A stretch of 47,460 bases of DNA from Caulobacteraceae bacterium (lineage in GTDB: Bacteria; Pseudomonadota; Alphaproteobacteria; Caulobacterales; Caulobacteraceae). Below the pieces are notes generated by a model. It saw only the letters and a list, made by a program, of their open reading frames with translations, had not been told where the DNA came from and made no database searches. The stretch spans positions 1 through 47,460 of the forward strand of contig DAIDGR010000039.1 of the NCBI GenBank assembly GCA_027452265.1, given 5' to 3'. This document shows positions 40,715 through 44,261 of this stretch, piece after piece. The translations under genes and the position numbers were made by a program. Within the stretch, counting starts at the first letter, position 1. Each line of letters begins with the position of its first letter.

Positions 40715-41023
<309 letters not shown>

Positions 41024-41129
41024 CTCGTGTGACTTCACCTTTGCCCAGGCCGACCGAGCCCTGAAGCGCCCAACTTTTCAAAGACCAACTCGCTGCCCCC
41101 TTTTGGAGGGGCGGCCGAACGCGAGAGTC

Positions 41130-41222
41130 CGCAAAAACGAATGGCCCGCGCGGAAAGCCGCGAGGGCCCAAATCGCGAGGGATCGGCGGGTTTCCACCGC
41201 CAGAGCTCCGATTCGTTTTGCG
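41130..41222 (-). promoter_or_regulatory. Candidate structured leader RNA of the S10 operon
   Basis: Minus-strand RNA, 5' to 3': P1 strand (41222-41211), then hairpin P2 (GGCGG/CCGCC, 41201-41185), then hairpin P3 (41168-41143: ten pairs, one C-U mismatch, loop CUUU), then AUUCGUUUUUGCGG. The last stretch (41142-41130) pairs with the first P1 strand over 12 bp with one bulged base. So P1 closes a junction around P2 and P3, and it includes the U-rich run after P3 that would make P3 a terminator. A further small stem (41097-41111) and a pair that could cover the ribosome binding site (41062-41066 with 41033-41037) lie downstream. Attenuation or autoregulation is inferred. Confidence 0.55.
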
Positions 41223-41284
41223 AACCGCGTCTGCTCCGTCCCTTCTCAAGGTGAAGCACAGCCGGTTCTCATCAAGAGGCGCGG

Positions 41285-41313
41285 TTACTAGTCGCCACTG
41301 GGGGCCGCGTCAA
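41285..41313 (-). promoter_or_regulatory. Predicted promoter of the S10 operon
   Basis: On the minus strand TTGACG (41308-41313), a 17-bp spacer and TAGTAA (41285-41290) give a near-consensus sigma-70 site, predicting a start near 41278 and a 255-nt leader to rpsJ. The rest of the 420-bp gap between rpsJ and the next gene (41024-41443) holds the structured element and, at 41349-41365, a small inverted repeat CGCTGC/GCAGCG; no gene was seen. Confidence 0.6.
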
Positions 41314-41443
41314 GGGCGAGCGGGCGGCGCGCGAGAGCCTGCCAACACGCTGCGACTTGCAGCGCGGCCCGGCCCATGATCAGACTTCCCTCACGGGAGT
41401 TCGCGTCAGACGAACCCCAGACATTTCGAGGGAGCGATCGCGC

Positions 41444-41872
41444 ATGGCCATTTGGCGCGGAGTCTTGCGACGCCTGGGAACGGGCCTTGGGCTGGCGGTC
41501 GTGATCGCCGGGCCGGCCTTGGCGGCGAGCCCCCGCGCGCCTGAGGATCTGGCCCTTGATCCTTCCGCGGCGGGCGCGGCGGCCGCACAGGTGCAGGCCG
41601 CCCGCACAGCGGGTCTCAGCGCCGCCTTCTCCGCCGCCGTCGCCTGGCGCGCGGCCGGGTTCCTGACCCCGGCCCTGCGAAGGCCCATCGCGGACGCGGA
41701 GATCCCGGTGGCGGCGCAGGCCTCCGCCACCCTGGCGGCTGACCCCCTGCACAAGGCCAAGGACCTGCGCGGCGCCGATCCGGCGCTGCGCCACCTGATG
41801 GATCACTATGACGGCGGCGCCCCCCTGGCCCTCGCCGCACGCGCCACGAGCGGCCATCCGCACCGGGGCTGA
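41444..41872 (+). CDS. Exported protein of unknown function
   Basis: 142 residues. The N-terminus is a classical signal peptide (WRGVLRRLGTGLGLAVVIAG, cleavage near PALAA), so the mature protein of about 115 residues should be periplasmic or secreted. It is Ala-rich, has no cysteine or metal motif and was not recognised. The ATG at 41444 follows GAGGGAG (41428-41434) at 9 nt. It is the first of three consecutive exported proteins on this strand, which face away from the S10 operon. The 277-bp gap after it shows no gene, tRNA or clear promoter. Confidence 0.65.
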   Translation: MAIWRGVLRRLGTGLGLAVVIAGPALAASPRAPEDLALDPSAAGAAAAQVQAARTAGLSAAFSAAVAWRAAGFLTPALRRPIADAEIPVAAQASATLAADPLHKAKDLRGADPALRHLMDHYDGGAPLALAARATSGHPHRG

Positions 41873-42149
41873 GCCCCTTAAGCGCGCACAGCCCGCGGCG
41901 CGGCGCGTCGAGCGCTGGACAAGACGGGATCGTCCGGGCCACGACTTGGCCGCATTGGTCGCGGCGAGTGAAACGTGTGAGCCAGAGTCCCTATCGCCGC
42001 CCCCGATCTCCCGCAGGCTTTTCAGGGCGTTGCGTCTGGACGGAACCCACCCGGCGCTTCGCAATGCGCTCAAGGCGTTTGAGACGGGATACGATCCAAC
42101 GTCTTCGCCGGCTCCACGAACACGCATCGCGCTCTGGGACTGACCGGGC

Positions 42150-43100
42150 GTGAGTGCGATCCGCACGAGGCGCGCAGCCCGCCGTAACGGCCTTGCCCTA
42201 GGGCTTTCGGCCCTGGCCCATTTGGCGGTCGTGCTTCTGGTGATGGGCGAATCGGTGCGGCCCTATGACCTGCCCGCGCCCGAGGCCCCGCCAATCCAGA
42301 TGGAGATCACTCCGCCGATTGAGCCGGTGGAGATTCCCCCGCGCCTGCGCGAGAAGCTCAGACAGGACGAAACGCCCCAACCGCTCAAGCCGGTCCCGAC
42401 GCCGACTGAGATCCCCCAGAAAACGCCGGCCCCGACCACGGCGACGCCTGCCATCAAGCTCAGCCCAGTCAAGGCCGCCTCCGCCCGTCCAAGCCCGACA
42501 GTCACCAGCCGGGCGCCGATCAGCGCCCAGCTCAACGCCACGGCGATTCCCGACCTCGCGCCCACGCCGGCGCCGCCCGCGCCCCTCGCCGCGGCCACGC
42601 CCGCCCCAATCGCCATGCCCAAGCTCAACCTGCACAAATCGGAGAAGCAGGCGCCTGCCGGGGTGCCGACCCTGCCCCTGGCCCCTCCCCCGCCGCCGGG
42701 AGGCGCGCAGAGCGGCGGCGGCGCCCCGTCGTTCGGCGGATCGCGTCTTCAGGGCCTTTCACCCTATCCTGGCGGCGTGATGCCAGGCGGTGGGGCGGGG
42801 CTGCGCGGCTCCCTGGTGGGCTGCGCCAATGCCGAGGCGGCGCATCTGAGCGCGGTGGAACGGGCGCGCTGCGCCACCATGTTCGGCGCGGATATCGCCC
42901 ACGCGCCCCGGTTCGACGGCATCTCCGCCGAGAAGCGCGCCGGGTTCGACGCCCAGGTGCAGAAATCCAACGCCTGGAAACAATATCGCGACGGCGTTCC
43001 GGCCAACGGCTCGGCGCACGACCCGATCTCCATGGAGAAGAACAGCGGTCCGCCCCAAGGGCTCTATCAGGACTATAAGGATGCCACCCAGCCCAAGTGA
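42150..43100 (+). CDS. TonB-like N-terminus, Pro-rich periplasmic protein of unknown function
   Basis: 316 residues, GTG start at 42150 (no strong ribosome binding site). Residues 1-33 are Arg-rich then one hydrophobic helix (LALGLSALAHLAVVLLVM), like the anchor of TonB. Then comes a Pro/Ala-rich span (about 40-195) with PxxP repeats, long enough to reach across the periplasm, and a small C-terminal domain of about 90 residues holding two Cys (VGCANAEAAHLSAVERARC) and ending YQDYKDATQPK. This is not the TonB C-terminal domain, so an energy-transducer role is not supported. Family not recognised. Overlaps the next gene by 20 bp. Confidence 0.75.
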   Translation: MSAIRTRRAARRNGLALGLSALAHLAVVLLVMGESVRPYDLPAPEAPPIQMEITPPIEPVEIPPRLREKLRQDETPQPLKPVPTPTEIPQKTPAPTTATPAIKLSPVKAASARPSPTVTSRAPISAQLNATAIPDLAPTPAPPAPLAAATPAPIAMPKLNLHKSEKQAPAGVPTLPLAPPPPPGGAQSGGGAPSFGGSRLQGLSPYPGGVMPGGGAGLRGSLVGCANAEAAHLSAVERARCATMFGADIAHAPRFDGISAEKRAGFDAQVQKSNAWKQYRDGVPANGSAHDPISMEKNSGPPQGLYQDYKDATQPK

Positions 43101-43551
43101 CCCGCGGCGGTTCGCCGCCCTCGCCCCGGCCCTCATCTTGCTTCTCGCGCCCGCCGTCCGGGCCGCGCCGGAGACCATCCGGCCTGGCTATTGGGAAGCC
43201 CATGAACGGGTCCTCTCGCCGATCCATGAGGACAAGACCGAACGGCGCTGCATCGCCGCCAAGGACGTGGCCCGATTCATGACCTGCTACATCAACCATC
43301 ATTATAGCTGTCAGTGTACGGATCAGTCCTACGCCGACGGCAAGATCCGCTATCAGGGCGTCTGCGTCGACGCCAAGGGCCGGCAGGTGCAGATCCAGGG
43401 CCAGGGCGCCTACACCCCGGACACGCTTCACCTCGAGGCCGAAGTGACCTTCAGCCTGGCGGGCCTTCCCATCATCGGCCGCGCCGCCACCGACGCGCAC
43501 CGCATCGCCGACCAGTGCCCGGTTGACAGCCCCGAGACGCCCAAACCCTGA
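43081..43551 (+). CDS. Periplasmic DUF3617-like protein
   Basis: 156 residues. Signal peptide (ALAPALILLLAPAVRA, cleavage before APETIRPG), then the IRPGYWE opening seen in DUF3617 proteins (PGLWE-type). Six cysteines (in RRCIAAK, FMTCYIN, YSCQCTD, QGVCVDA and DQCPVDS) suggest disulfides in the oxidising periplasm. DUF3617 members are small exported proteins without known function. The ATG lies inside the end of the previous gene (20-bp overlap), suggesting coupled translation. Confidence 0.7.
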   Translation: MPPSPSDPRRFAALAPALILLLAPAVRAAPETIRPGYWEAHERVLSPIHEDKTERRCIAAKDVARFMTCYINHHYSCQCTDQSYADGKIRYQGVCVDAKGRQVQIQGQGAYTPDTLHLEAEVTFSLAGLPIIGRAATDAHRIADQCPVDSPETPKP

Positions 43552-43676
43552 CGGCGCACGTCGTCCTTTAGGCCAGCGCCGGTTTCAGAGGCTTGCCGCC
43601 GGGCGAGGACGTCCCATTCTGACCCATCGGCGATTCCCGATCCCACCGGCGTCGCTGCGCCCCGACCCGCCCGGAC

Positions 43677-44261
43677 ATGACCATGCAAACCTATCTCGTC
43701 TCGGCCGCCCTCGTTGCCCTGGCGGAGATGGGCGATCGCACCCAGCTGCTGGCGATCATGCTGGCGAGCCGCTATCGCGCGCCGGTCCCGATCCTGGCCG
43801 GCATCCTGGCCGCAACCCTCGCCAACCATGCTCTGGCGGCCCTGGCCGGCTTCTATCTTTCGAACCTGCTCTCGGCGCCGTGGTTCAGGTACGCCGTGTC
43901 GGCCTCCTTCGTCGCCATGGCCGCCTGGGCCCTGATCCCGGACACGGCCGGCGACGAGGCGGAGGGGCCCGCCCCATCGCGCCGGGGCGTGTTCTGGGCC
44001 ACGGCCATCGCCTTCTTCCTGGTGGAAATGGGCGACAAGACGCAGATCGCGACGGCCGCCCTGGCCGCGCGCTTTCATGAGGTCATATGGGTCGCAGCGG
44101 GCACCGCCAGCGGAATGATGCTGGCCAATATCCCGGCCGTGTGGCTGGGCGAGCGCGTCACCCGTATCCTGCCGATGGCCGCCCTGCGCATCGCGGCTGC
44201 CGCCGTCTACCTCATCCTTGGCGTCCTGGGCCTCGCCCAGACCGCCGGCTGGATCCGATAG
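43677..44261 (+). CDS. TMEM165/GDT1 family membrane transporter
   Basis: 194 residues, six or so membrane helices in two halves. Each half has the family signature: EMGDRTQLLAIMLASRY near residue 17 and EMGDKTQIATAALAARF near 121 (E-x-G-D-[KR]-T). Members move Mn2+ or Ca2+ against protons; bacterial relatives are manganese exporters, but the ion here is inferred. No manganese (yybP-ykoY) riboswitch was found upstream. ATG 43677 (another at 43683). Converges on rpoC with a strong hairpin in the gap. Confidence 0.9.
   Translation: MTMQTYLVSAALVALAEMGDRTQLLAIMLASRYRAPVPILAGILAATLANHALAALAGFYLSNLLSAPWFRYAVSASFVAMAAWALIPDTAGDEAEGPAPSRRGVFWATAIAFFLVEMGDKTQIATAALAARFHEVIWVAAGTASGMMLANIPAVWLGERVTRILPMAALRIAAAAVYLILGVLGLAQTAGWIR

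Follow-up and report, generated by a model that had tools for sequence, protein, structure and literature searches.

In Escherichia coli, the S10 and str operons are textbook examples of feedback control, and ribosomal protein (r-protein) leaders work by feedback. In the E. coli S10 operon, L4 is described as attenuating transcription with NusA (PMC10931766). The rpsL motif of Candidatus Pelagibacter ubique, in the published description, consists of a P1 with a bulge that leads into a three-stem junction whose J2-3 is conserved, and is given there as restricted to Pelagibacter and marine metagenomes (PMC2704228). Terminators in rpsL leaders of diverse bacteria have been proposed to act as attenuators, with Listeria, Xanthomonas, Pseudomonas, Rickettsia and streptococci as the genera shown and with no globally conserved sequence or structure in that account (PMC2965389). 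boxA has been placed upstream of rpsJ in three gammaproteobacterial genera, with sites taken within 50 bp, and suhB in E. coli is the case of boxA and Nus-factor autoregulation described in the same source (PMC5725501). Structured RNAs in the rpsJ 5' UTR are also represented by the Firmicutes S10 r-leader (PMC7247131) and the Peptostreptococcaceae rpsJ motif (PMC11109978). For Caulobacter crescentus NA1000, a global 5'-RACE and RNA-seq survey has been published (PMC4117421).

Here we analyzed a 47,460-nt stretch of DNA (the window, meaning that whole stretch), in which the leader of the S10 operon consists, in order, of a promoter, a hairpin (Pa), a P1 domain enclosing P2 and a terminator-like P3, a further hairpin (P4), a boxA-like GGUCUUUGAAA and rpsJ (Table 1). 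This leader is best read as an autogenous-type r-protein leader that is spread through a class and has an unusual build, with a boxA-like element placed here at the gene for NusE. The class-wide part would be an element with an invariant loop and an attenuator-like hairpin, joined by the boxA-like element in the family of Caulobacter and Brevundimonas.

The leader resembles that controlled by L4 in E. coli in standing before the same operon, in having a hairpin and U-run before rpsJ and in the r-protein feedback by attenuation proposed for it; in E. coli, attenuation with NusA is accompanied by translation control. By description, it is unlike the E. coli leader in that the likely binding hairpin is promoter-proximal and precedes the attenuator, that a three-way junction is closed by P1, that a boxA-like element comes after it, and that joined operons carry the same element ahead of rpsL. 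A difference from the L4 leader had been noted in the preliminary description, and it agrees with the absence of any Rfam 15 match at the gathering score in the window, eight relatives and twelve rpsL-type loci, although the two are set apart by description. Matches obtained at loose thresholds were far below the gathering scores and were discarded. The Pelagibacter motif, as described, is alike in being a structured RNA between rpoC and rpsL that heads a joined str-S10-spc operon in an alphaproteobacterium, and is set apart by description in that Pa is a hairpin with an internal loop, although the two may be remotely identical. The attenuators proposed for rpsL leaders share a terminator before rpsL, and differ in that the account of them reports nothing conserved globally. 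The two rpsJ leaders from Firmicutes and Peptostreptococcaceae, alike in their position in the 5' UTR, belong to another phylum and are likewise distinguished by their published descriptions. In the openly accessible papers searched, we found no such rpsJ or rpsL leader in alphaproteobacteria other than Pelagibacter.

Table 1. Features of the rpsJ leader in the window
Feature	Coordinates	Strand	Basis or remark
-35 element TTGACG	41308..41313	-	sequence; TTGACG in 34/38 family leaders
-10-like TAGTAA	41285..41290	-	sequence; spacer to -35 of 17 nt
Pa, hairpin nearest the promoter, internal loop GGCUGU/AGACGC invariant, proposed to bind a protein	41222..41268	-	covariation; R1 and R3 searches
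P1 5' strand CGCAAAACGAAU	41211..41222	-	fold; alignment A4
P2, hairpin of variable length	41170..41210	-	fold; alignment A2
P3, GC-rich hairpin, candidate attenuator or pause hairpin	41143..41168	-	alignment A4; terminator-like by scan
U-rich tail AUUCGUUUUUGCG, doubling as P1 3' strand	41130..41142	-	sequence; alignment A4
P4, hairpin adjoining boxA, weakest named hairpin	41089..41125	-	fold, -15.1 kcal/mol
boxA-like GGUCUUUGAAA	41076..41086	-	sequence; family comparison
Candidate Shine-Dalgarno AGGUGA	41035..41040	-	sequence
rpsJ (S10 = NusE; Pfam PF00338), first gene of the S10 operon	40715..41023	-	ATG 41023-41021

Downstream of rpsJ, Pfam matches in the window give L3, L4, L23, L2, S19, L22 and S3. 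Upstream, the ORFs with Pfam matches lie on the opposite (plus) strand, so that rpsJ likely has its own promoter; on the minus strand, a 292-aa ORF that ends at 41288 lacks a Pfam match and is unlikely to be a gene. Of the promoter previously suggested, TTGACG-N17-TAGTAA, the position and the -35 element hold up, as 34 of the 38 family leaders examined at the outset have an exact TTGACG 243-325 nt 5' of rpsJ, and the remaining 4 have TTGACT or TTGACC instead. TAGTAA, however, is a poor match to a -10 element, and a promoter scan of the window called no sigma-70 site at the rpsJ leader. Transcription from this promoter would start at about 41278, giving a predicted leader of about 255 nt. The interval between rpsJ and rpoC (the latter recognized by eye) is occupied on the plus strand, at 41357-44261, by two small ORFs and a 316-aa ORF without a Pfam match; the same stretch encodes a DUF3617 protein (43081-43551) and, at 43677-44261, an antiporter of the GDT1 family.

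We found rpsJ in 58 of the 60 relatives searched, and within the window's family (f1) the rpsJ upstreams share one plan, with the exception of a single genome (G031). Its named carriers include Brevundimonas as well as records labeled uncultured Caulobacter and Caulobacteraceae, which identifies the family as Caulobacteraceae or a close neighbor of it. With a covariance model built for Pa (R1), we obtained matches in 276 of 299 family genomes at E<=1, covering 21 of 22 genera; without four weak matches, whose fetched loci hold neither rpsJ nor rpsL, the count is 272/299 at E<1e-4. Some of the genomes missed by R1 (G011, G033 and G016) have rpsJ broken or missing in the assembly. Among 18 weak R1 loci, none has rpsJ, two (L178 and L189) lie directly 5' of rpsL, and 16 are without either gene. 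A second model, of P1 and P3 (R2), matched 98 of 100 family loci at E<=1e-7, 38 of the 100 having been used to build it. In the exceptional genome G031, tuf precedes rpsJ, and R1 matches 4.4 kb upstream of rpsJ and directly 5' of rpsL, in a leader (L328) with promoter, Pa, P1, P3 and U-run in which no boxA was seen by eye.

The most conserved parts of the leader are Pa and the boxA-like element, both of which had been missed in the preliminary description. The internal loop of Pa is invariant as GGYNGU/ARACGC, and its stems covary. In a MAFFT alignment (A1), 96.1% of the Pa cells are paired and 7 of 11 pairs show two-sided changes, with a covariation score of 0.529 compared to at most 0.144 when the strands are slid; in a model-fitted alignment (A5, which includes one extra match of E 0.014, L146, that is probably due to chance), 96.9% are paired and two-sided changes occur in 8 of 11 pairs. 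A tree-aware count, using parsimony states and a tree built from the leaders themselves, gave 21 pair-to-pair branch changes versus 1.0 (sd 1.05) for change-matched random column pairs. The Pa strands also pair better with their own partners than with foreign ones in 2601 of 2970 comparisons. Because covarying stems flank invariant bases near the 5' end, we read Pa as a protein site, a candidate protein-binding hairpin and the likely position of the ligand, in preference to P1 or P2, where a ligand had been placed earlier. Mimicry of an rRNA site is common, though not universal, in autogenous r-protein leaders; among the 16S and 23S loci compared with Pa, there was no convincing match. The general mark of an r-protein leader, a conserved and covarying RNA structure within the 5' UTR of its operon, was found here, and the presence of a conserved structured leader before rpsJ is almost certain.

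The distribution of Pa across the class bears on the identity of the ligand. We compared 234 distinct rpsJ upstreams for the end of a tuf gene within 400 nt: it is present in 103 of the 120 that lack Pa and in 1 of the 114 that carry it, counts that include 43 upstreams in which the fetched stretch was short and no tuf was seen. The Pa core is present in 24 of 73 rpsL upstreams versus 3 of 1460 shuffled sequences that keep single-base composition only; three of the 73 had been picked for an R1 match, and the core is present in 21 of the other 70. After Pa, a terminator-like site (a hairpin, then a T-rich stretch) follows in 22 of these 24 rpsL leaders versus 31 of 120 shuffles of the same composition-only kind, and since two of the loci (L189 and L350) come from the same genome, the 24 and 22 leaders represent 23 and 21 genomes. 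From 40 rpsL- and rpsJ-type elements (alignment A6), we built a class-wide model, R3. The covariation score of Pa in A6 is 0.694 compared to at most 0.199 when slid, where the rows were chosen for pairing, so that only the pair types count, and where one row (L366) is out of register. R3 matched 70 of 385 alphaproteobacterial genomes at E<=0.01 under strict filters; the 315 without a match include the window's own genome, a certain carrier, which means that the search misses much. Of 30 R3 loci that were fetched, 26 have rpsL and 4 have rpsJ, and the strict core lies just upstream in 28. Applied to 70 class-wide rpsL upstreams, R3 matched 27 at E<=0.01, 19 of them sources of the model and eight new. 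Among the rpsL loci inspected (L336-L435 and L328), the element was seen to head rpsL of joined str-S10 operons in many alphaproteobacteria.

In three genomes in which the operon is split (G000, G017 and G373), Pa is at rpsJ, while their rpsL upstreams hold neither the Pa core nor an R3 match. The element thus stands first in the ribosomal operon in many alphaproteobacteria, at rpsL where rpsL-rpsG-fusA-tuf-rpsJ form one unit and at rpsJ where, as in the window, the S10 half is on its own; in the three split-operon genomes checked, it remains with that half. That it goes with this half after the split points, from these few genomes, to a ligand encoded there, and we consider an origin of the ligand in the S10 half quite likely.

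Outside the family, the Pa core with both stems occurs in 7 of 113 rpsJ upstreams of at least 250 nt (112 from outside the family and that of G031) versus 16 of 2260 shuffled sequences, again with single-base composition alone preserved. The seven belong to members of the order in families f2, f3 and f4, to Azospirillum halopraeferens (L100) and to a further locus, L235, whose family was then represented by 39 searched genomes. In the 31 loci examined from that group, 30 from the search together with the A. halopraeferens locus, nine have less than 250 nt upstream, and Pa is present in 8 of the other 22. All 8 of these Azospirillum-type leaders carry a canonical terminator at the position of P3, 159-164 nt before rpsJ, in which the hairpin GAACAUCC..GGAUGUUC has a folding energy of -21 to -27 kcal/mol and runs into U5-U7. 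Their P1, compared by eye with the version in the window, encloses the terminator using other sequence, for example CCGAUAACGAA with UUCGUAUCGG. Six f2 rpsJ upstreams (L036, L037, L040-L042 and L044) have a shorter conserved leader, with a TTGACG promoter and a Pa-like GGCNG..RACGC core; no P3 or boxA was evident in f2 rpsJ upstreams by eye. The f4 leaders, also by eye, have a Pa-like core without an evident P3. In Aminobacter, the match (L111) lies about 680 nt before rpsJ.

The boxA-like GGUCUUUGAAA is the sole exact GGTCTTTGAMA in the window's assembly. Its core is found in 100 distinct family leaders, for which the motif [GA][GA]TCTTTGA was the extraction condition; 111 of 112 loci satisfied that condition, the one failure (L166) being without rpsJ. 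In the family, the element lies 35-91 nt from the ATG, mostly 53-67 nt. The form in the window, GGTCTTTGAAA, has two mismatches to GYTCTTTAANA, the gammaproteobacterial consensus. Two f2 genomes (L137 and L138), relatives from the same order, carry TTTGACAT in their 16S leaders, and we infer that it is boxA there. The core UUUGAMAU of the boxA-like element is shared with these two f2 16S leaders, which read TGTTTGACATCG, and with two f3 rpsJ leaders, which read GATGTTTGACATG. A near-identical TGTTTGACAT was also observed in the f3 rpsJ leaders (L045 and L047) and the f2 16S leaders. The resemblance to the described boxA/Nus-factor systems (PMC5725501) lies in the placement of a boxA-like element 5' of the gene for NusE itself; unlike the cases described there, the consensus match here is imperfect, the element stands mostly 53-67 nt from the ATG, and it is joined to an attenuator-like leader. 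We consider it somewhat likely, on motif and position, that the element would be bound by NusB-S10.

P4, which precedes the boxA-like element, has a mean z of -1.4 across 100 leaders, only 26 of which fall below -2, and it appears in the consensus fold of genera g7 and g32 but not of g1. A long-range helix enclosing P4 and boxA (P5, GCGU/ACGC) was tried and rejected: only 1808 of 2970 comparisons favored its own strands over foreign strands, and it is absent from the window. P5-type helices GCGU..ACGC and lineage variants of them nevertheless seem to be present in several f1 genera, for example in L018, L017 and L022.

The near invariance of GGUCUUUGAAA in the family, its place 3' of a hairpin, which it shares with the two rRNA leaders from f2, its uniqueness in the assembly and the Nus-factor precedent (PMC5725501) could all be taken to mean that boxA is the center of the leader, loading NusB-S10 and SuhB-type factors that repress rpsJ translation or give polymerase Rho resistance along the long operon, with P3 as an insulator or pause site. 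We find this unlikely, as Pa is older and more widespread, being kept in Azospirillum-type, f2 and rpsL-type leaders that have no clear boxA by eye, and as boxA lies 3' of P3, so that it would be no help in bringing polymerase past P3.

The preliminary description had proposed a 12-bp stem with one bulge that pairs with a U-rich run and closes a domain of P2 and the terminator-like P3 before the S10 operon, and this structure was confirmed. P1 in the window comprises 12 pairs and one bulge, U41137, with the U-rich AUUCGUUUUUGCG as its 3' strand; the stretch 41225-41120 folds at -53.4 kcal/mol with a z of -3.76, and none of 200 shuffles folds as well. For the whole 255-nt leader the signal is smaller, with a z of -1.88 and 12 of 200 shuffles folding equally well. 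The arrangement is conserved in relatives, the P1-P3 core having a mean z of -4.5 in 100 distinct family leaders, with 94 of the 100 below -2. P2 is absent from two leaders in A2 (L015 and L024).

Compensatory changes, which had been anticipated throughout P1-P3, were found in P3 and not in P1. In the model-fitted alignment A4 (38 of whose 100 sources also built R2), P3 shows two-sided changes at 7 of 9 pairs, and a tree-aware count over P1 and P3 gave 18 double changes versus 0.9 expected, all 18 of them within P3; for P1, that count found no two-sided change within the family. P1 was nonetheless not lost in close relatives: 91.6% of its cells in A4 are paired, with one-sided changes only, and these counts are lower bounds, since the inner P1 pairs are missed in 23 of 91 rows, apparently through an extra base in the purine run. 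The U-run is nearly constant and the opposite strand swaps A and G, 388 of 396 bases being purine, a pattern that fits pairing but also fits selection on the U-run itself. P1 strands favored their own partners over foreign ones in 1865 of 2970 comparisons.

As a terminator, P3 is a plausible attenuator that looks weak in the window. The hairpin GGCCCUCGCGG-CUUU-CCGCGCGGGCC is followed by the tail AUUCGUUUUUGCGGAC, and the five bases (AUUCG) between stem and U-run make for a weak intrinsic terminator, here as in many relatives; a terminator scan of the leader region in the window gave 2 overlapping sites versus 1.0 expected. In the family, at least five U in the next eight bases follow only 62 of the 97 P3 hairpins detected by script (some over-extended, and with three leaders giving none), and in L200 the terminator scanner did not call P3. 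In 72 of the 97 leaders, the distance from the end of P3 to the end of the U-run is 8-11 nt, a spacing that would also suit a hairpin pause. With the canonical terminators of the 8 Azospirillum-type leaders at the same place, we judge attenuation at P3 to be reasonably likely.

The switch proposed in the preliminary description, in which P1 forms first as an antiterminator and a ligand on P1 or P2 frees the terminator, is by comparison very improbable. The pairing of P1 with the U-run, its retention in the family with purines opposite, and a P1 extension (41225-41223, optional) that shares bases with the 3' strand of Pa would suit such a switch. P1, however, spares both arms of P3, and since its 3' strand is the U-run and beyond, the stem would hardly form before the termination decision, at which a fresh U-run is still in the RNA-DNA hybrid and the bases beyond it are not yet made. 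Because this strand is unavailable until the U-run leaves the polymerase, P1 is better read as a structure of the read-through RNA. The extension into the Pa 3' strand, examined as a switch, is 93% paired, but 116 of 500 shuffles scored as high, and it was rejected. We also rejected a pairing between Pa or P3 and ACCGCG at the 5' end of the leader, as it is not kept in several genera by eye.

It is similarly hard to credit that the leader is a passive stable 5' UTR, folded to protect the mRNA or to space the promoter from the first gene without any ligand, for although strong folding in a GC-rich genome and a P2 that varies and can be missing would agree with this, the invariant loop bases of Pa are kept class-wide and are unneeded for stability.

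These data favor, with fair likelihood, an autogenous r-protein leader in which a protein of the S10 operon binds Pa and attenuates transcription, and in which NusB-S10 may bind boxA. We propose that an S10-half r-protein in excess over rRNA, L4 by precedent, would bind Pa while polymerase is still in the leader. The bound protein would make polymerase more prone to pause or to terminate intrinsically at P3 and the U-run after it, the presumed stop or pause point for transcription, and the operon would thereby be attenuated. In transcripts that read through, P1 would close the P2/P3 domain, and boxA could then take up NusB-S10, resulting either in feedback by S10 (NusE) on rpsJ translation or in an antitermination complex for the long operon.

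A broader version of this autogenous model is tentative, and we regard it as possible rather than probable: Pa may be an ancestral alphaproteobacterial sensor of ribosome supply, which stands first in the joined str-S10 operon, goes with the S10 half upon splitting, since its ligand would be encoded there, and acts by attenuation, while the Caulobacteraceae-type leader would be a two-input switch in which S10, as NusE, also acts via boxA. If this were true, ribosome assembly and the antitermination machinery would report to one leader. The leader thus raises the questions of which S10-half protein senses ribosome supply and whether NusE regulates itself.

Where rpsJ lies directly 3' of tuf (L093, L103 and similar loci), hairpins with T-runs can occupy the short gap, and rpsJ genes directly after tuf may also be set by partial termination.
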